Part shown: positions 12,348 to 58,600 of the stretch, in pieces
Layout of the letters: each line of letters opens with the position of its first letter
How positions within the stretch are numbered: the first letter of the stretch is position 1
Position numbers and translations under genes: made by a program
Assembly (NCBI GenBank): GCA_017516075.1
Contig: JAFWDS010000013.1
Location: forward strand, 1 to 58,890
Direction of reading: 5' to 3'
DNA: 58,890 bases
From: Candidatus Saccharimonadota bacterium
GTDB taxonomy: Bacteria; Patescibacteriota; Saccharimonadia; Saccharimonadales; Saccharimonadaceae
Notes under the pieces: generated by a model
The model's database searches: none
Seen by the model: the letters and a program-made list of their open reading frames with translations, nothing else
What the model was told of the DNA's origin: nothing

Positions 12348-12705
12348 GGGGCTGATCATAGCTTAGACGGGATATTAACAGTTACAAGGCGCACCGATTA
12401 AATACCGTAAGTATTAATAAGTGCTAAAAACACGAAAACTGCGCATGTTGCTTACATGCCAGCTTATGCCTAGTTTGATTTTATAGGCTGATCTCAGACT
12501 AAGATTTCGTAGGTTTGGGATTATCATACAACGAGATTAAGGTTGTTTAATTGGCGAGAAATAACTCGAAAATATAGCCATGGCTTTCATTAGTTTCGTT
12601 TTCTGCAGCTGATGATATACGCCAAGACAAAACAGAAGACTATGTGCGTAGAATTGTGACCCAGTGATGTTTCGGACGCGGAGGCAGTATCCGCCAGCTC
12701 CACCA
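12348..12705 (+). ncRNA. ssrA: Transfer-messenger RNA (tmRNA)
   Basis: This 358-nt RNA rescues stalled ribosomes with SmpB. The acceptor stem GGGGCTG (12348-12354) pairs with CAGCTCC followed by encoded ACCA (ending 12705). A resume frame starts at GCT 12423 and reads AKNTKTAHVAYMPAYA before TAG 12471-12473; the tag ends in small hydrophobic residues as proteolysis tags do. The pseudoknot-rich body lies between. The T-arm stem is GCGGA/TCCGC but its loop is GGCAGTA, not the usual TTC-type loop, which is unusual for a tRNA-like domain. Confidence 0.93.
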
Positions 12706-12708
12706 CCG

Positions 12709-12814
12709 ATTTATTGCTAAAATGCTCCATCTGGGCATTTTTTTGTGCTCACTCGTCCATAAGACGCGCTTCGCACGGAGAAAATACCCATCTGAAGCAT
12801 TTTATCTAATAAAT
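12709..12814. repeat. Palindromic element, family A, copy 2 (tmRNA 3' flank; probable terminator)
   Basis: Arms at 12709-12726 and 12796-12814 are complementary (tattg-taaaatgct type). The left side forms a small GC hairpin around ccatctggg followed by TTTTTTT, resembling an intrinsic terminator for tmRNA. The right side has the family A block gagaaaatacccatct. The element starts 3 bp after the tmRNA CCA end, in the same orientation as the copies behind the two tRNA-Val genes. Confidence 0.8.
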
Positions 12815-19762: not shown

Positions 19763-19942
19763 GTAAGATGCCAGTAGTTTTATTCGCGTCTACGCTTCAC
19801 GCCGAGAGATTTTTTGGAAAATTTTTAACGGAAATTACTCTTGTCTCGCGGCTGTCTTCACGGCTCGCATGAGATAATTTCCTAAATTTTCTAAAAACTC
19901 TCTCGGGTTTGCTTTATGCTCATAAAACTACTGGCATCTTAC
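19763..19942. repeat. Nested palindromic element K
   Basis: Outer arms 19763-19782 and 19923-19942 are perfectly complementary over 20 bp (gtaagatgccagtagtttta). Inner arms near 19802-19824 and 19884-19906 pair as ccgagag-ttttt-gaaaattt. The centre carries cggctgtcttcacgg, the inverse of the centre of the family C element at 12120. The right arm covers the last codons of the M50 protease gene. Confidence 0.8.
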
Positions 19943-20577
19943 ATCCCTACTATGAAGTAGAAGAAGTTCAAAATGCCATCCATGCCGCTCACCATCAGAT
20001 GCGAGAAGACTTCACCGAGGATGAGGATCAAAGCGTAGACAACGATAAAGCCATAGCGTTCCATGTTTTGCAAGACATTGCGTACCCCATCAGGAGAGAT
20101 AGCATATAGGACACGTGAGCCGTCTAACGGCGGGATTGGAATAAGATTAAACAAGAGAAAACCGAGATTCACATAGACTAATTCTACAAAAATAAACTGC
20201 CAAACATCTCCACCGACGCCATAAACGAGCCCGGAAAAATGACCGATCAAAAAACAGATGAATGCTAGAAGAAAATTAGTAAAAGGTCCGGCGATAGCGA
20301 CAAGCGCCATGCCCCAAACACCCCATTTAAGATTACGCGTATCTATCGGTACAGGCTTGGCACCACCAAAAACAGGGGCATTGAGCAGATATAAAACAAC
20401 TGGTACCAAGATAGACATGTAGGGGTCAATATGCTTGATTGGGTTAAAAGTTAGGCGACCGGCGTCTCTCGCGGTATGGTCTCCGAGCCAGTAGGCGACA
20501 GCTCCATGAGCTAGCTCGTGCAAAATCACCGACCCCACCACGATTAGAAGAATAAGTATAATATATAAGATATTCAT
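19939..20577 (-). CDS. Site-2-protease-like M50 membrane metalloprotease
   Basis: The start ATG 20577 (212 residues, MNILYIILILL...) is preceded by TATAAT at 20585-20590 with a 7-bp gap, so the mRNA is probably leaderless; a longer reading would run into a palindrome. The zinc motif HELAHG (near residue 20) and the second motif LIPIPPLDGSRV (near 150) are both present, within about four to five membrane helices. It fits the short family of M50B proteases that cut membrane-bound substrates. The substrate is unknown. Confidence 0.88.
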   Translation of the reverse strand: MNILYIILILLIVVGSVILHELAHGAVAYWLGDHTARDAGRLTFNPIKHIDPYMSILVPVVLYLLNAPVFGGAKPVPIDTRNLKWGVWGMALVAIAGPFTNFLLAFICFLIGHFSGLVYGVGGDVWQFIFVELVYVNLGFLLFNLIPIPPLDGSRVLYAISPDGVRNVLQNMERYGFIVVYALILILGEVFSHLMVSGMDGILNFFYFIVGM

Positions 20578-20600
20578 ACTTAGTATTATATCATTATTTT

Positions 20601-20782
20601 GGATGGGTCCTGGTTGCACAGGTTTTTCTGATAGCTGGACTTAAAATTTTAAGCACGTCATACGCTGGGACGCCGGCAGAACCGCCCCTTCGGGACGAAC
20701 CTGCCGGGTCCGTCAGGAATATACGTGTTAAAATTTTAAATCATTTTTATGCTATCAGAAAAACCCGTGCAACCACCCATCC
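20601..20782. repeat. Nested palindromic element, family B, copy 1
   Basis: Outer arms 20601-20635 and 20751-20782 pair over about 32 bp (ggatggg...gatagc with gctatc...cccatcc; the left arm carries a 3-base insertion). Inner arms ttaaaattttaa lie at 20641-20652 and 20728-20739. The core (about 20653-20727), from gcacgtcata through cccttcgggacgaacctg to atacgtgt, is nearly identical to that at 38370-38441, while both sets of arms differ completely between the two loci. Confidence 0.88.
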
Positions 20783-20787
20783 AAAGT

Positions 20788-21234
20788 CTAATTTAATACT
20801 ATTACTTCTTTAGTAGCTGGGAGGGAGTCGAGGTTTTTGACTTTGAGCTTTTTCTCGGTACGAGCAGTAAGTTTGAGTTCTGAGACCATACCGTCGACAT
20901 TGCCCATTGAGACGATAAGCCTTGGTTCAATTTCGCGGACGGCGCGAACAGAGGAAGTACAGAGGATGTCAGCGACTATGTCGTCGAGATTTTCTGCTAT
21001 ACCACCGATAATACCGGTATGAATGCCGCCAATTTCGACATCGTAAATAGTCTTGCCGCTCTTGGTAGCTACACCGCGAATGGTGGCATCGCCGATTTCG
21101 AATTCGCCAGGACCATGGATGACACCAACTTTTAGATTGGCATCGATGTCGCCGCTGGCGACATTGAACTTGATGGTGGTTTTTTTGGTGGTGATAATGA
21201 TATCATCTGGACCTTTGCTTTCTATTTCAAACAT
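20788..21234 (-). CDS. Degenerate metallo-beta-lactamase-fold protein (UlaG/YfnR-like)
   Basis: The 148-residue protein is made mostly of short beta strands: VGVIHGPGEFEIGDATIRGVATKSGKTIYDVEIGGIHTGIIGGIAENLDDI resembles the GPGEYEV-type region of Zn-dependent hydrolases of the beta-lactamase fold seen in CPR genomes. The histidine-rich HxHxDH metal site is not visible, so catalysis is doubtful. It lies 8 bp after the winged-helix gene (21243-21848) and is likely co-transcribed. Confidence 0.55.
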   Translation of the reverse strand: MFEIESKGPDDIIITTKKTTIKFNVASGDIDANLKVGVIHGPGEFEIGDATIRGVATKSGKTIYDVEIGGIHTGIIGGIAENLDDIVADILCTSSVRAVREIEPRLIVSMGNVDGMVSELKLTARTEKKLKVKNLDSLPATKEVIVLN

Positions 21235-25450: not shown

Positions 25451-25527
25451 GGGTTGTTAGCTCAGTTGGCTAGAGCGTCTCGTTTACACCGAGAAGGTCG
25501 GGGGTTCGAGCCCCTCACAACCCACCA
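25451..25527 (+). tRNA. tRNA-Val (anticodon TAC), CCA encoded
   Basis: The acceptor stem GGGTTGT/ACAACCC, D-arm AGCTCAGTTGGCTAGAGC, anticodon stem TCTCG/CGAGA with loop TTTACAC, and T-arm GGGGGTTCGAGCCCC are all canonical. The encoded CCA (25525-25527) is also the first part of the left arm of the palindrome that follows. Confidence 0.97.
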
Positions 25528-25632
25528 TTAGAGTTGAAAGGCGCCATCTCGGCGTTTTTTCGTACTTGCTCTATCAATAATAGCGCTTCGCGCGAAGAAA
25601 ACACCAATCTGACGCCTTTCAATCTCTAATGG
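25525..25632. repeat. Palindromic element, family A, copy 3 (tRNA-Val(TAC) 3' flank)
   Basis: Arms 25525-25545 (ccattagagttgaaaggcg) and 25611-25632 (gacgcctttcaatctctaatgg) pair almost throughout. Next to the left arm, CGCC-ATCT-CGGCG followed by TTTTTT is a compact intrinsic terminator. The core then reads acttgctctatcaataatagcgcttcg in pieces and ends with gaagaaaacaccaatctg. The element begins at the CCA of the tRNA. Confidence 0.85.
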
Positions 25633-25643
25633 ACAGCGGAATC

Positions 25644-25695
25644 GAAAGGCGCCATCTCGGCGTTTTTTCGTACTTGCTCTATCAATAATAGCGCT
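25644..25695. repeat. 52-bp direct repeat of the left half of the preceding element
   Basis: Positions 25644-25695 repeat 25536-25587 exactly or nearly so, from gaaaggcgcc to tagcgct. The copy stops at the glycosyltransferase gene, whose TAG stop codon (25694-25696) is built from its end. It lacks a right arm, so it looks like a truncated duplicate. Confidence 0.85.
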
Positions 25696-37271: not shown

Positions 37272-38309
37272 ATGGATTTAGAGAAGTTAAAAGAGGAACT
37301 ATCGCAGATTGAGGAATTTCTGGCGAAGCCAGAGGCGTATGCCGATAGCGAGTTTGCCACGAAGTCGAAGCGTGCAATGATTTTACGAGAGATTTTGGAT
37401 TTGAATAAAAAAATTGAACGGCTGGAAAACAATCTGGCGGAGGCTGATTCCCTGTTGAATGACCCGGAACTCGGCGAAATTGCAAGAGAGGATTCGGAAA
37501 AAATCAAGAGTGAGCTTGAAAATGCACGCGAGAAGTTGGATGAGCTTTTGATTCCGCGCGACCCAGAAGACGATAAGCCGGCAATCATTGAAATCAGGGC
37601 TGGGGCCGGCGGCGACGAAGCATCGCTGTTTGCTGGCGAGCTTGAGAGAATGTATATGAAATACGCTGAGCGGCATGGGTTAAAGTTTGAGCCGATTTCA
37701 GAGAATCAGAATGAGGCCGGCGGAATGAAAGAAGTTATCTTTAAGCTGACCGGCGATAACGCCTATGGACAATTGAAATTTGAAGGTGGCGTGCACCGAG
37801 TGCAGCGCGTGCCAGTGACGGAGTCGCAGGGGCGAATTCATACCTCTACCGTGACGGTGGCGGTGCTCCCTGAGGCATCAGAACATGATTTGGAGATTAA
37901 ACCAGAAGATCTCAGAATTGACATTTATCGTTCGGGTGGGCATGGTGGTCAGGGGGTGAATACGACTGATTCAGCAGTAAGGATTACGCATTTACCGACC
38001 GGGATTGTGGTCGCAATGCAAGATGAACGTTCGCAACAGCAGAACCGCATTAAAGCGATGAATGTATTAAGGACTCGGTTGCTTGAAAAAAAGAAAGAAG
38101 AAGAGCGCAAGAATGCTTCTGAAGCGCGGAAGTCGCTGATTGGGACTGGGGATCGCTCGGAGAAAATTCGGACTTATAACTTTCCGCAAGACCGCGTTAC
38201 TGACCACCGGATTCATTATTCGCGTTCAAATATCCCAGCGGTGATGGACGGGGATATTGATGACATCATCAGCGAGCTAGTTAAAAATGAAAGAGAACTC
38301 ATCAAATAA
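37272..38309 (+). CDS. prfA: Peptide chain release factor 1
   Basis: The 345-residue RF1 reads UAA and UAG. The GGQ peptidyl-hydrolase motif appears in [18 protein letters not shown]. The codon-recognition domain is as in RF1 ([16 protein letters not shown]). Both TAG and TGA stops are used in this window, consistent with the standard code. The mRNA is probably leaderless (TATAAT 6 bp upstream). prmC follows as its natural partner. Confidence 0.95.
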
Positions 38310-38313
38310 TTCT

Positions 38314-38497
38314 CGGCGGGTCCTGGCTGAACCTGTTTTTTCGGATGCGGGACTTGATTTTTCGAGCACGTCATACACTGGGACGCGGGCAGAACCGTCC
38401 CTTCGGGACGAACCTGTCCGGTCCGTCAGGAATATACGTGTCGAAAAATCAAATCAGAACTTTATGCATCCAAAAAAACAGGTTGCAGCCATCCGCC
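38314..38497. repeat. Nested palindromic element, family B, copy 2
   Basis: Outer arms 38314-38348 and 38466-38497 (gaacctgtttttt...ggatgc / gcatcc-aaaaaaacaggtt), inner arms near 38354-38365 and 38441-38450 (gatttttcg/cgaaaaatc). The core about 38366-38440 matches the copy at 20653-20727 almost base for base. The right arm starts inside the prmC start codon (ATG 38464) and continues into its first codons, so the element spans the prfA-prmC junction. Confidence 0.88.
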
Positions 38498-39132
38498 TAG
38501 TAGACTTTTATGGACATGTTTTTCTTATTACGCCAGATGTCTTAGTTCCCCGCCCCGAGACCGAGATGATAGTTGATGCGGTACTGAATCTCGTGGGTAA
38601 GCCGTATCTCTCTGGCGTGAAGCCGAGTCCGGCAAAATTGCCTACTGATATCAAAATCGTAGATGTGGGGACTGGGTCGGGGGTGATTGCGATTACTTTG
38701 AAGCTGGAGATTCCGGAAGCGGAAGTGACTGCTGTAGATATTTCTGATAAAGCACTTGAAGTAGCAAAACAGAACCGAGACAAGTTTGACGCAAATATTA
38801 ATCTCCTAAAGTCCGATTTGCTAGAGAAAATTGATTTCGAGCCAGATGTCGTAGTGGCGAATCTACCTTATGTAGACAAAGATTGGGATTGGATAGATAA
38901 GGAGGCTTTAAAAAAAGAGCCAGAGATTGCGCTTTATGCCGAGGACCATGGACTTGCTCTAATCAAACAATTAATTGACCAAGTCGCAAAACGTACGATT
39001 CCCTTTTTAATACTTGAAGCCGACCCGTGCCAGCATGACGACATTATAAACTATGCAAGAAAAAAGGGTCTCGAGAGACTCGAGACCCGAGGATTTGTGC
39101 TTACTTTGAGTAACCCTCAAGTGTCACATTAA
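38464..39132 (+). CDS. prmC: Release-factor glutamine methyltransferase
   Basis: PrmC methylates the GGQ glutamine of RF1 and RF2. I chose ATG 38464 (222 residues) because the frame upstream is only the family B palindrome. RLVDFYGHVF and PRPETEM match PrmC, and SAM is bound by VDVGTGSGVIAITL. The usual NPPY motif is NLPY here. The N-terminal helical RF-binding domain is largely missing, so the enzyme is shortened or the palindrome has replaced it. The 3' end overlaps the convergent htrA gene by 32 bp. Confidence 0.85.
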   Translation: MHPKKQVAAIRLVDFYGHVFLITPDVLVPRPETEMIVDAVLNLVGKPYLSGVKPSPAKLPTDIKIVDVGTGSGVIAITLKLEIPEAEVTAVDISDKALEVAKQNRDKFDANINLLKSDLLEKIDFEPDVVVANLPYVDKDWDWIDKEALKKEPEIALYAEDHGLALIKQLIDQVAKRTIPFLILEADPCQHDDIINYARKKGLERLETRGFVLTLSNPQVSH

Positions 39133-48578: not shown

Positions 48579-48819
48579 AAAATCCAATAGTATAAATTAC
48601 AAAACTGGACTTGGGCAGTTGTTTTTATTACAAAAATCGTCAGGCACTCGCGTCTTATTGCCTAATATCTTGGTTCCTATAATACTTAGTGGAACTGCCG
48701 TATTTAACCAACCGGTTTCTATTTAATACTCAGGCTGGACGCTCGCGCGCTGGATTTTTGTAATAAAAAACAACGGGCCAAATCTATTTAATGTTTTGTA
48801 ATTTATACTATTAGATTTT
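48579..48819. repeat. Nested palindromic element F over the ileS 3' end
   Basis: Outer arms 48579-48605 and 48793-48819 pair almost fully (aatccaatagtataaattac type), the right arm covering the last ileS codons and stop (48811). Inner arms 48613-48638 and 48753-48779 pair (ggcagttgttttt-attacaaaaatc). The core holds small GC blocks (ggcactcgcg; gctcgcgcg). It spans the gene end without changing the ileS C-terminus visibly. Confidence 0.78.
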
Positions 48820-51800
48820 CTCCAGGGATATGGTGATGTTTTCGCCGGAGATTTTGGCGATTTCATCGTGAGAATAGTTGGCGGAGCTGGTGATGTTGGT
48901 GGCGCCGACTTCGGTTTTGATGAGAGATTCGTAGCCTTTTGGAATATCGCAAGATATAGATAGCTTAATTTGGTCGTCTTGACGGAGACCAGCATGTTTT
49001 CTGGCGGACTGGACGGCGCGGATGATTTCGCGAGCCCGTCCTTCCTCCTTTAATTCGTCTGTAAGAGTTTTATCTAGAAAGAGTTTATCGCCGTTTTTAA
49101 CTTCTTTGACGTTGACTTCGTCGGCAATGATTTGCTCGTAGAAATCGTCTAGTTTGTCGCCATCGTAAGTGAGGCTCGAGAGAGGCTGGCGGATTTTGAT
49201 CTGGTCCTCGGTGTCAGACTTTTGCATGCGGAGTGCCAAGGCATCGGTAATAATCTGGCGGGTGCGAGCCATGTTTTCTAGGACGTTTTCGCGATCTTTT
49301 TCGATAGTGCCAGGCCAATACTGCAGGTGGACGGATTCGCCGGAGTCGGTGAGTTTTTGATAGAGTTCCTCGGATAAGAATGGGGTGAAGGGAGCGAGGA
49401 GGGCGGCAGTTTGGATGAGAGCGTCACGTAGGACGTAGAAGGCGACAATTTTGTCTTCCCTGTCATCGTTTTTGCTGAAGCGGCGGCGTGAACGGCGGAC
49501 GTACCAATTGGAAAGGTCGTCGATAAACGGCAACACGCCACTGAGGGCTTTAGGAATGTTATATTCTTCCATGCCTTCGGTGATTTCGTCGCGAAGCTGG
49601 TAGAAACGGTGGATGATCCATTTGTCTAGAGGAGAGCGGATGCGGACGGCCTCATTGAAATCTTCGGTGCCAAGGCCTTCGACCTCGGCGTAGGTGGTAA
49701 AGAAATCGTAAACGTTCCAGAGCATGCTGAGCTTGCGGTGGACGTCGGAAACATCTTTGTCTAGGAGGGCGAAATCTTCGCCAGAGAGGACTGGGGAGCT
49801 AAGTAAAAGGAAGCGGAGAGCGTCAGCAGAATACTGGTCCATGAGCTCGTTGGGGTCGGTGTAATTGCCGAGGGATTTACTCATTTTGCGACCGTCATTT
49901 CCGGCTAGAGTGCCGGTAGTGATGACGTTTTTGTAGGCGTTTTTGTGGCCTTTTTTGGCTTTCTCACCAAAGGCACCAATAGAAGCTAGGGTAGTATTCA
50001 CGGCGTGAACATAGTAAAACCAAGCACGGACCTGGCCGACGTATTCGACAATGAAATCGGCTGGGTAGTTTTTCTCGAACTTTGCTTTGTTTTCAAAGGG
50101 GTAATGAAGCTGAGCGAAAGGCATGGAGCCGGATTCAAACCAGCAGTCGAGGACCTTTTCGATGCGAGTGAAATGCTCGCCGTCGATGTCGAAGGTGATT
50201 TCGTCAACCCAAGGGCGATGGTAGTCATCGAGTTCTTTACCAGATAGTTCCTTGAGTTCGGCGTAGGAGCCGACGACTTTGACGGAGCCTTTGTCGCCCT
50301 TCCAGACCGGCATAGCGGTGGCCCAGAAACGATCGCGCGAAAGATTCCAATCTGGTGCGGCTTCGATGTTTTTGGCGAAACGGCCGTGTTTCAAATAACT
50401 TGGGAACCAATTGATGTGTTCGTTTTCGGCGAGCATGAGGGGTTTTTGACCTTCGATGTCAAAGAACCAGCTAGGGAAAGCACGATAGATAATACGTTCT
50501 TTGCTACGTGGATTGAAGGGGTATTCGTGCTGAATATAGTCAATTTTGTAGATAATTCCCTTTTCTTCTAGACATTTAGCGATGTATTTGTTGCCAGCCC
50601 AGACCTGAATGCCGTTTTCGTCGGTGTCGCGAACGCCAAGAGCGTGGAGCTCTTCGGCCATTTCTGGTAGATAGTAGCCGTTTTCGTCGAGACAATCAAC
50701 GAAATCTAGTTCGTATTGCTGTGCTAGGGCATAATCGTCTTCGCCGTAAGCTGGGGCGATGTGCACGATGCCGGTGCCGTCTTCGGCGGAAACGAAATCG
50801 CCAGGAAGGACCGTGTAAGTGTCTTTGCGAAGGACTGTTCCCTTGTCGCCACGGAGGCCTAAATCAAATAATCCGTCAGCGACTTTGATGATAGGTTCGT
50901 ATTTTTTACCAACTAGAGCGGTGCCCTTGAAGGCTTTTTCGGGCTTTTTGCCCTCGAATAATACTTTGGCACGTTCCAGGGAGACGATGTATTTCTCGCT
51001 ATCGATGTCGAAAACACCATAGTCTAAGTCTGGGTTCACAGCGAGAGCCAAATTGGCCGGCAGGGTCCATGGGGTAGTAGTCCAAGCAAGGAGATAGGTA
51101 GATTCAGAAATAGATCTTTCTCGGGGCGCTTCGTCGCGCCCGTCGTTACGGGACTCCTCGCTTCGCCTGCTCTCGTCGTCGCGGATGCCCCTCGAAAGAC
51201 TATTTTCTGAATCTAATAGCTTAAACTTGACATACGCTGATGGATCGGTGACGTTCTGGTAGGCGTCGTTATCCATGGTGACTTCGGCTTTGGAAACCGG
51301 AGTGGCGAATTTGGTGTCATACATCAGGACTTTGCGGCCTTCGTAGATTTTGCCAGCGTCGTAGAGCTGTTTGAAAGCCCACCAGACCGACTCCATGAAA
51401 TCCTTATTCATGGTGCGGTAGCAATTGTCAAAATCTACCCAGCGACCGACGCGGTCGATGGTGGCTCGCCAGGTTTCAGAATTTGCAACCATGGATTCGC
51501 GAGCTTTTTTGATGTAGTCTTCGAGGCTCCATTTAGTGCCAATCTCGCGGCGATCGGTGATGCCGAGCTGCTTTTCGACAAAATTCTCGGCTGGGAGGCC
51601 GTGGCAGTCCCAACCCCAGCGCCTCTCGACGCGGTAGCCGTTCATAGTCCAAAAACGTGGAACGGCGTCTTTGACGATAGAGCTAAGAAGCGTGCCGTGA
51701 TGAGGATTACCAGTAATAAATGGAGGGCCATCGTAAAAAACGTAGGATTTGTCAATCGGCCTCTGTTCGACTGATTTTTCAAAAACATGATTTTTCTTCC

Positions 51801-51864
51801 ACCAATCAGCGATGGCTTTTTCGTATTCAATCGCCTTACGGCGTTCTCCAGCTCTATATTTCAT
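48811..51864 (-). CDS. ileS: Isoleucyl-tRNA synthetase
   Basis: This 1017-residue class I synthetase charges tRNA-Ile. The HIGH-type motif reads PHHGTLLSS after PPFITGN, and KMSKS is intact (GRKMSKSLGNYT). The editing domain (TWTTPWTLPANLALAVNP) is present. About residues 217-255 are a Ser/Arg/Glu-rich loop encoded by a palindromic element (51100-51214), inserted just before the conserved editing-domain segment. TATAAT (51872-51877, minus) is 7 bp before the ATG, so the mRNA is probably leaderless. Confidence 0.96.
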   Translation of the reverse strand: MKYRAGERRKAIEYEKAIADWWKKNHVFEKSVEQRPIDKSYVFYDGPPFITGNPHHGTLLSSIVKDAVPRFWTMNGYRVERRWGWDCHGLPAENFVEKQLGITDRREIGTKWSLEDYIKKARESMVANSETWRATIDRVGRWVDFDNCYRTMNKDFMESVWWAFKQLYDAGKIYEGRKVLMYDTKFATPVSKAEVTMDNDAYQNVTDPSAYVKFKLLDSENSLSRGIRDDESRRSEESRNDGRDEAPRERSISESTYLLAWTTTPWTLPANLALAVNPDLDYGVFDIDSEKYIVSLERAKVLFEGKKPEKAFKGTALVGKKYEPIIKVADGLFDLGLRGDKGTVLRKDTYTVLPGDFVSAEDGTGIVHIAPAYGEDDYALAQQYELDFVDCLDENGYYLPEMAEELHALGVRDTDENGIQVWAGNKYIAKCLEEKGIIYKIDYIQHEYPFNPRSKERIIYRAFPSWFFDIEGQKPLMLAENEHINWFPSYLKHGRFAKNIEAAPDWNLSRDRFWATAMPVWKGDKGSVKVVGSYAELKELSGKELDDYHRPWVDEITFDIDGEHFTRIEKVLDCWFESGSMPFAQLHYPFENKAKFEKNYPADFIVEYVGQVRAWFYYVHAVNTTLASIGAFGEKAKKGHKNAYKNVITTGTLAGNDGRKMSKSLGNYTDPNELMDQYSADALRFLLLSSPVLSGEDFALLDKDVSDVHRKLSMLWNVYDFFTTYAEVEGLGTEDFNEAVRIRSPLDKWIIHRFYQLRDEITEGMEEYNIPKALSGVLPFIDDLSNWYVRRSRRRFSKNDDREDKIVAFYVLRDALIQTAALLAPFTPFLSEELYQKLTDSGESVHLQYWPGTIEKDRENVLENMARTRQIITDALALRMQKSDTEDQIKIRQPLSSLTYDGDKLDDFYEQIIADEVNVKEVKNGDKLFLDKTLTDELKEEGRAREIIRAVQSARKHAGLRQDDQIKLSISCDIPKGYESLIKTEVGATNITSSANYSHDEIAKISGENITISLEKI
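51100..51214. repeat. In-frame palindromic insertion in ileS
   Basis: Arms 51100-51127 and 51187-51214 pair over about 28 bp (agattcagaaata...ctttc-cggggc). The GC-rich core includes cgcccgtcgttacggg, similar to cores in the gyrA element. It is translated without stops as a charged loop, and the flanking residues (LDSE, STYLLAW) are normal IleRS sequence. Confidence 0.82.
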
Positions 51865-55674: not shown

Positions 55675-58600
55675 CTAGCTACCTATCAAGCAACGGACAC
55701 TAAATCCGTAGATCTTATAGTGGCTGTAGGACGGGTACAAGGTCGTAGAGCTCAGGATCAGGTAGTAAGAGGAGTCGCCGCCGTCCGCCGACCTACTCCA
55801 ATAATAGCCGGCGCCATGACCCGCGGACGAGCCATTGAAGCTGCCGGAGTAAAGGAAGTTGTTGGGGAAGGCTCTAAAGCGATTGCTCATGATGTCACCG
55901 GTACCGGTGCCTGATTGGTTTTCTCCACTTCCATCATAGCTTCTAGAAAGGGTGCCGAAATCTTTAGTCGTGGTGCCACTGGTTGGCAAAGTCCAGTTGG
56001 TGGGACAGATAGAAGTACCTGCAGATTCAGAGCCGGATGCACCAACGGCGGACGAGTAGTAGGTGGTATTAGCCATCGCAGCAGCCCAGGTGTAGTAATT
56101 GCCATAGGATGAGATTGTAGAGGTTTTATAAGTACCACTGGTGGATGGGCTAGTGGCGTTGGCATAGTTTTCTGTATAGGTTGGGCTTTGTAGAGCACTA
56201 GAGTTATTGCTGTTATTGTAACGTGGAAAACGATAGCCTGGGTAGTTAGAAGTGCCAATATCTTCTAGCGTACTGGTAGATGAATTGTAAGTATCTACTG
56301 GCGGATTAGCAGAAGATTTGTAGATACCACCATTAGCGAAGGTAAGGGAGGTAGTAGAGGTACTAAAGTTGGCAGATTCTGAGGCAGCGAGACCAACGAA
56401 GCTTCCATAGGTTCCTGGAGTACCACCATAACCTTGGGAGAGAGATTCATTGGTGACGGTTGGATCATTGGTATTATTCCCCACTGTACCTTCGTGCTCT
56501 AGGCGGAGGTTTTCTATCATCCAGCAGTTATTGTCGGCTAGTTTTGCTATCGTATATACTTCATTATCACGTTTGTCAGTAAGAGCGATTACACTACCTG
56601 GAGTAATAACACCAGTAGAAGAATTGAACTCTGCTTTAGTTAAGGCATTACAATCAGTAGAAGTGAAATCTTGGAGATAAATTGGAGTACTAGATGGATC
56701 GGATGGATTAGTCTTTTCGGCTGGCACCCAGACAGCATACATAGTAATGATATTAGTACCATTAGTGGGGTAAGCTGGAGCATCTATAGTTTCCATCGGT
56801 CCGTAGATGACTGGGTCATTAGTATTATCGTTATCCGTGAAGTGAGCCCAAGCATCCGAATCGGTAGACCAACCAGCGAAACCGTTACCCGATTTCTTGA
56901 AGTTAGAGGCAAGGAGGATTACTGGGTCACCTTCGCCTACATTAGTTTGTTTAACGCTTTTTACACCAGTACTTTGGTCTATTGTGCCCATACCAGTACC
57001 ATCGTTACTAGACCCATTACCATCATATTGGATAGAGTAGACTGGGACCCAGTGGGCGTAGAGGGTAATGCTACTTCCTGCACCGGAGCCACTAGGCACC
57101 GTGTAGGTCTTACCTACGCCATATTCAGTATTAGTATTGTCTGAGTTATCGGCTACGGTGGACCAACCTTTAATCTTCCAGCCGGTAAGAGTCCATTTAT
57201 TATAAGCGGCGAGAGTGCCAGTTTCGGTACCAGTGCTGGGGTTATTGGTGAGGTTAATCATCTGCTCGCTAGTACCGTCGGAGACAGTTGTTGTACAACT
57301 GGCGTTAGCACTGGCGTAAGTCTGACAGTTATTCACGTAAGTGATGGTGTATTGGGGGACCCACTGGGCGTAGAGAGTGATAGTGGAGCCGGGAGCAGGA
57401 TTGAGATTAGTTATAGCGGTATTTGCAGCAATAGCAGTACCGGTGCCATCGGCGGCAGTATTCCAACCGTTGAAGGCCCAGCCAGTCCTAGTAAAACCAG
57501 CGCCTTGCTGTGCATTGGTGCTGTTTATTTCTACATTGGTTTGAGAAGCGACGGAGCCGGTGACTGGGTATTCGGTGGTGCCGTTGCCGTCATAGTTGAT
57601 GGTAGCGGTGCCGTTAGAAGCGACGCAGCGAATATTGTACCCCATCCTCTTATTATAGTTCGTGGTGGTAGCGTTAGCAGTGGCGGAGCTATAGTAGGCT
57701 GGCGTACCGCCAGAGGTTGAGGTCCAAAGATAGACCGCTGTGGTACTGGCAGGATTACTGGTGCCAGCTTTATAACCAGCTTTATAAAAATTGAATGGAG
57801 CGCTATAGGCATTTGAAGTGGTAAGGCTAGCTTTAGTTTTCAAATTATCATATTGGTTCCTGGTGGGGAGATCCCAATTCTTTGGGCAAATAGAGGATGT
57901 GACATTGGTGCCACTGGAGGAATAGTTAGTGGTGCTAGCTAAAGCTGAAGCCCAGGTGTAATAAATGCCGTAAGTAGAATCTATATATAATAATGGCGTA
58001 GTATAAGAAGTGGCATTATTAGTAGTCAAAAATGAGGAAGTGCTGGCGGGGAGGGTGAAAGTAGTGTTCTCAGCCAGGTCGGTATCGTCAATGGTGAGGG
58101 TAACCGTACCATCGCCATTAGGACCATATGTGCCGGTGCGGCCAAGATTTAAGTTGGTAGTCATCCAGCAGAGACCATCAGCTAGTTTGGATACGGTGTA
58201 TTGTTCTGGTTGTTCTGGACTCTCTCCGGTGGTGACTTTACCACGATAATCCAGAAGCGTAGCAGCAGGAGCATTAGCTGCGGTGGTGATGGGTGAATTA
58301 TAACAAGCAGCCGGAGACATATCTTGCATTTCGTTATGGTCTATAGTCTTTTCGGTGCCTACTGGAGTACTGGTAGTAAGATCTGCTAGGGTGGCTTGTT
58401 TCCATTGAGCATATAGTGTGATGGTGCTTCCTGCCGCAGTTAAGTCTTCTACTGATTCTTTGTCTTTATACCAGTCTCCAGTACCATCTGCCGCGGTATT
58501 CCAACCCCAAAAAACCCAGAGTTTGTCTGGGTCTCCTGTAATAGTATTATTGTCTGCATCTGTATAGCTAGCTCCAGTAGGCGCGGTAAGAGTATCTGCT

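Follow-up and report, generated by a model that had tools for sequence, protein, structure and literature searches.

How does a repeated DNA element keep its two arms complementary to each other when the arms themselves vary from copy to copy? The question is raised by two loci in the window, the whole 58,890-nt stretch of Saccharibacteria DNA analyzed here. A sequence-only reading had described them as nearly identical cores framed by locus-specific complementary arms, and had proposed that either the arms co-evolve by compensatory change or a templated process builds a matching arm after insertion.

Two window loci and their arms

Each of the two loci folds, as DNA, into one long hairpin of 184-191 nt, with folding energies of -58.8 kcal/mol for copy 1 and -55.9 kcal/mol for copy 2 (z = -11.8 and -11.1), and none of 200 shuffled sequences folded as well as either hairpin. 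The near-identity of the cores was confirmed (71 of 76 positions, 93%, between 20653-20728 and 38366-38441), as was the complementarity of each arm to its own partner, with local scores of 31.9 in copy 1 and 24.2 in copy 2. Pairing left and right arms across the loci gave scores of 9.7 and 9.5, while shuffled arms gave a mean of 7.0 and a maximum of 11.2. The assertion that the arms share no sequence did not hold: the left arms are identical at 35 of 53 positions (66%) and the right arms at 39 of 54 (72%), and the two copies align without gaps over 151 nt at 80% identity. The bases common to both loci's arms sit at conserved motifs, namely GGGTCCTG, TTTTTC and GACTT on the left, and AAATC and CCACCC on the right. 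Moreover, the unit is more than the 75-nt core: in full, and referred to here as element B, it measures about 183 nt. Its two window copies and their surroundings comprise the following features:

20600..20783, + strand: palindromic element B, copy 1; intergenic and antisense to the genes on either side
20598..20604, + strand: copy 1 outermost locus-specific arm, TTTGGAT; mirror ATCCAAA at 20779-20785 (exact 7, local score 10.5)
20605..20652, + strand: copy 1 left arm; begins with the conserved end GGGTCCTG (20605-20612), a motif conserved in the copy alignment
20653..20728, + strand: copy 1 conserved core, GTCATAC[A/G]CTGG ... CGTCAGGAATATAC, with apical stem; 13 matches in its own genome
20729..20778, + strand: copy 1 right arm; terminates in the conserved CCACCC (20773-20778); inverted repeat I3
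19939..20574, - strand: Peptidase M50 gene; other flank of copy 1
20788..21234, - strand: gene of unknown family; stop codon 5 nt from copy 1
38315..38497, + strand: palindromic element B, copy 2; in frame in prmC, close to the N-terminus
38318..38365, + strand: copy 2 left arm; begins with GGGTCCTG (38318-38325)
38366..38441, + strand: copy 2 conserved core; 93% identity to the copy 1 core
38442..38494, + strand: copy 2 right arm; terminates in CCATCC (38489-38494); inverted repeat I17
38287..39132, + strand: prmC (HemK family) open frame; reads through copy 2 as 10 residues, the insert RVLAEPVFSDAGLDFSSTSYTG...KKQVAAI, then RLVDFYG...
37272..38309, + strand: prfA (release factor 1), with PCRF and RF-1 domains; overlaps the prmC start

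At the prmC site, copy 2 lies in frame before LVDFYG, where empty orthologues read, e.g., MNDKLVDFYG.

The window also holds other repeats. A second palindromic family, 72-77% alike, occupies positions 41-105, 12729-12793, 25546-25610 and 25639-25695, with one copy just 3' of the tmRNA (which ends at 12705) and one just 3' of a tRNA (which ends at 25524). A direct repeat of 101 nt with 85% identity lies at 1585-1685 and 2579-2679. In addition, a long inverted repeat at 51099-51215, within a class I tRNA synthetase frame (48811-51864, minus strand), is probably another in-frame palindrome, with TCGGGGC-type arms. Elsewhere in the genus, an 88-nt insertion with two hairpins was found directly 3' of a tRNA near position 57267 of G191:C3, when compared with G056:C3; it is present in one of these two close species, between flanks that are 98-100% identical.

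Copies, distribution and reading frames of element B

The core has 13 matches in its own 924-kb genome, a count in which one interrupted copy scores as two. It was found in 18 of the genomes sampled from the genus, 40 genomes representing other genera in the order yielded none, and a pattern scan of named genomes returned 105 further stretches; among the matches listed, all were from Saccharibacteria, many of them from the ruminant gut. Altogether, more than 130 copies were collected across Saccharibacteria, of which 131 distinct copies were tallied. In an alignment of ten copies from the own genome, the conserved parts follow one another as GGGTCCTG (left end), TTTTTC, GACTT, core, AAATC and CCACCC (right end), with freely varying stems between the arm motifs. 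A DNA search of plasmids and a peptide search of phages left element B unmatched, and the insert peptide had no match among solved structures; four exact 16-mer matches in viral contigs were attributed to chance, as judged by structure.

Some copies have particular settings. Two, on the minus strand of L038 (969 and 1338), have no core apical stem and lie near each other and near a complete copy. Five others (L072, L073, L110, L114 and L127) lie 11-16 nt 3' of the stop codon in paralogous genes of surface-protein-like type that end in SVRCLAR or similar; since several of these have about 55 nt of far-side sequence in common, they were probably spread by gene duplication.

When an open frame of at least 180 aa was required, 93 of the 131 copies were found inside genes, mostly housekeeping ones, and the other 38 look intergenic or unresolved. 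The host genes include tatD, tsaD, trmD, alaS, pheT, dnaX, lepA, mnmA and exonuclease III, names that were assigned by sequence motif, part of them being tested. A preferred frame accounts for 62 of the in-gene copies and encodes the peptide EPxFSxAGLEFSSTSYAGxPAEPSLRDEPVGSVRNIRVENSN, while 20 copies lie in the opposite orientation and 11 in other forward frames. Irrespective of frame or orientation, the host frame is open in all 93 copies and the remaining frames are mostly closed, which argues for translation of the insert; the predicted product would add roughly 50-60 residues. No clear gene disruption by element B was seen among the collected copies. A self-splicing intron or translational bypass was rejected, as the host frame is always open, and so was an intrinsic terminator, as both orientations occur and copies are mostly in genes.

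Paired changes, host-codon mirrors and core turnover

Over all pairs of copies, median identity was 0.79 for the cores, 0.49 and 0.50 for the two arms, and 0.43 for unrelated flanks. Two copies of one genome, located in trmD (L086) and alaS (L136), have arms that are 90% and 89% identical and cores that are 96% identical, with flanks at 0.48 and 0.40. Finding recent copies with nearly the same arms at unrelated sites indicates that arms travel with the core and that their divergence comes later. For young copies, within unrelated flanks, the earlier expectation that transposition would transfer the arms unchanged is thus correct.

Divergence of the arms proceeds pair by pair. At the same gene site across species, 311 pairs had changed on both sides while keeping Watson-Crick pairing and 176 had changed on one side only, in counts that pool related sequences and hence non-independent events; this agrees with the proposal that the arms co-evolve. 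All four Watson-Crick pairs are present at most helical arm columns. These columns contain 3940 Watson-Crick pairs, G-U pairs numbering 48 on the element strand and 84 on the opposite one, and 164 mismatches of other kinds, a count confined to helical columns because conserved internal-loop mismatches confound a broader one. Watson-Crick changes accompanied by so little G-U do not correspond to RNA-type drift. The strong covariation and the conserved internal loops could be explained by a structured RNA, be it riboswitch-like, an intron or a bypass element, undergoing ordinary RNA covariation. However, G-U pairs are not only rare, they are also not enriched on the transcribed strand: forward coding copies have 23 in sense and 54 in antisense, whereas selection on mRNA structure predicts the reverse. 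Furthermore, copies occur in both orientations relative to transcription, an open host frame is unneeded for a spliced or skipped element, and Rfam gave no relevant match at either curated or permissive thresholds. We regard a structured RNA as extremely improbable.

Compensatory evolution could instead be selected at the DNA level, if a recombinase or transposase were to recognize the folded single strand through its unpaired motifs. Integron integrases recognize folded single-stranded attC sites via such motifs. The conserved unpaired motifs of element B, set within freely varying Watson-Crick stems, would fit this explanation, as would the very low G-U content of either strand and the isolation of the paired changes, which mostly affect single base pairs and not tracts, a pattern that selection on a DNA hairpin would give too. 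What it does not predict is that native host codons are mirrored beyond the element ends, nor that the arms of one copy (L418) are still mirrored when half of its core has been lost. Selection for a DNA hairpin is therefore considered unlikely, and template switching is the more plausible source of the paired changes.

The mirrored codons were found in the outermost arms, which lie beyond the element ends and are host DNA. In trmD and alaS, host codons that are conserved (EFA, KMA) make up the left outer arm, and their reverse complement forms the right one; this mirror was seen for element B and for other palindrome families, and is absent in species without the insertion. In exonuclease III genes, the conserved GTAIL motif forms the left arm, and the right arm of each species matches its own synonymous codons with a score of 17.75 of 24, versus 11.1 of 24 for those of other species (permutation p = 5e-5). 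In one of these genes (L130) the mirror, as read by eye, extends over 27 nt without mismatch, whereas empty exonuclease III genes have an ordinary loop, e.g., FTKIKPLSI...FGDPCTEGR, with no mirror. At the 3' end of rpsO, the right arm of another palindrome family is a mirror of the final codons plus the stop codon, and the empty alleles of several species contain the native left sequence only. Among the very close genomes G056, G191 and G196, the rpsO insertion is present in two and absent from G056. The empty G056 allele could in principle be a deletion, but the native left sequence occurs without its mirror in several other species. This strongest pre-insertion case concerns a palindrome family other than B. 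Overall, native host codons are mirrored in occupied and not in empty alleles of rpsO, trmD, alaS and exonuclease III, which lends support to the suggestion that a templated process builds the matching arm. In the two youngest in-gene B copies, the outer mirror spans just 5-6 bp (GGCAG/CTGCC and GGCGC/GCGCC), which could represent a short palindrome that was already there.

The cores also turn over. Among exonuclease III genes, the B core is forward in five and reversed in five, inside homologous outer arms, as expected from template-switch spacer inversion (PMC8604942). Palindrome families R and S are reverse complements of each other and occupy the same trmD and tatD sites, and one lepA position is occupied by element B in one species and, in two close relatives, by a different palindrome. 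Two chimeras (L249 and L262) combine B-type outer arms with another core. Moreover, some palindromes contain another one inserted at their apical loop, and two such cases show apparent direct repeats (GACGG and TCCCCC). A nested palindrome family, seen at L006, L009, L253, L260, L269 and L162, has the conserved frame GTCGTC...CTCGA / TCTGCTCGGCTCC; its apical stem differs at each place yet is self-complementary, resembling the B pattern in miniature.

The two nested insertions into hairpin loops, the chimeras and the short symmetrical flanks of young copies raise the alternative that cores insert into inverted repeats already in place, such as terminators or other palindromes, so that the arms would belong to the target and not to the element. 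However, the arms of young copies match across unrelated genes, conserved motifs run through the arms, and the empty alleles of tatD, trmD, alaS, exonuclease III and rpsO have no mirror. Arms already forming inverted repeats when the core inserted, the situation that the sequence-only reading had set against its own proposal, were thus found in nested insertions and not as a general rule. We judge this alternative very improbable, with insertion into ready-made palindromes accounting for some nested cases only.

The same reading knew of no described mechanism for such arms. In fact, template switching between inverted repeats has been described as a possible source of one-step matching changes, stem extension, arm homogenization and spacer inversion (PMC8794818, PMC8604942), and paired changes, stem extension and spacer inversion were all found at orthologous sites of element B. 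What we observed comprises copies lying in frame, young copies with common arms, paired changes, a host-codon mirror, core inversion and nesting. We consider it probable that element B is a coding palindrome that moves, and that template switching homogenizes its arms at the DNA level. Under this model, a small non-autonomous palindrome of Saccharibacteria would spread among genes and intergenic sites, its copies usually being retained only where the reading frame stays open, and each new copy would start with its parent's arms. The arms would then fold on each other in single-stranded DNA, and one would repeatedly serve as the template for the other, through template switching during replication. 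Such re-copying would keep the arms complementary while their sequence drifts, could extend the mirror outward into adjoining host DNA, and could invert the core between the arms. A bolder version, which we hold with as much doubt as conviction, is that the palindrome grows into its host: hairpin-guided replication would reverse-copy flanking codons, essential genes would come to carry mirrored conserved motifs, and cores would be exchanged, inverted or nested inside persistent, self-homogenizing arms.

Movement of element B presumably occurs by transposition with a helper. No transposase was identified for it: a Y1 transposase was not detected in the own genome (G000) and is present in 2 of 60 genomes of the genus. 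A reverse transcriptase was likewise not detected in the own genome and is present in 39 of 60; as the own genome nevertheless has 13 core matches, a reverse transcriptase does not appear to be a required helper. The reverse transcriptases of the genus (e.g., L350-L353) are about 330-480 aa long and possibly belong to diversity-generating retroelements.

Element B among known palindromic repeats

The closest parallel is found in the Rickettsia palindromic elements (Ogata et al. 2000, 2002), which, as summarized in PMC10969869, are inserted in frame into housekeeping genes unrelated to one another and are also found in intergenic DNA. Both are palindromes of about 100-180 bp with many copies, a preferred frame and a conserved peptide, and neither has a known mobilizer. 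Element B, at about 183 nt, shows the palindromic, many-copy organization of these elements (about 100-150 bp), as well as their in-frame insertion in unrelated genes with a preferred frame (93 of 131 copies, 62 in one frame). It is found in another phylum, and no Rickettsia palindromic element family was among the NCBIfam matches listed at E up to 10. Element B behaves as a coding palindromic element of the Rickettsia type, with no homology detected between the two. Moreover, while Rickettsia palindromic elements are reported to lose repeat identity over time (PMC6649704), the arms of B stay complementary as they change, and absorb host codons.

Coding palindromes are also known from nematomorph mitochondrial genes, where repeat conversion or template switching has been proposed (PMC6649704). 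In both systems, inverted repeats are embedded in protein-coding sequence and their arms are kept complementary; for the nematomorph palindromes, no repeated element with a conserved core is described, whereas B is a multi-copy seed with imperfect internal loops. REP/RAYT repeats and MITEs derived from IS200/IS605 resemble B as short hairpin repeats in many copies. REPs measure 20-40 bp (PMC3733652) and are, unlike B, mostly extragenic, and the Y1 (RAYT) transposase that is the hallmark of the REP/RAYT system was not detected in G000. A classical MITE has terminal inverted repeats, a target site duplication and ends in common with an autonomous transposon; B shows conserved ends (GGGTCCTG / CCACCC), with no target site duplication established and no autonomous partner found, and apparent direct repeats were seen only for two nested palindromes. 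Finally, B would have in common with template-switch mutation the one-step matching change, stem extension, homogenization and spacer inversion (PMC8794818, PMC8604942); known events of this kind are short and scattered, whereas in B the process would involve long mobile hairpins and extend over many nucleotides of the host's conserved codons.

In-frame palindromic elements are already known as a kind. Within the open-access literature searched, and allowing for an earlier description elsewhere, the new aspects are the lineage, how many essential genes are involved, the upkeep of complementarity and the host-codon mirroring. The system offers many natural replicates in which arm conversion by template switching is separable from RNA compensatory evolution, and it carries a warning, as strong covariation, which is usually read as proof of functional RNA structure, can stem from DNA-level copying. 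It may also represent one way in which new loops arise in essential proteins. Coding palindromes have so far been treated as a peculiarity of Rickettsia, with decaying hairpins; here, reduced gut bacteria of a candidate-phylum genus carry several such families in many essential genes, with arms that are actively kept complementary.
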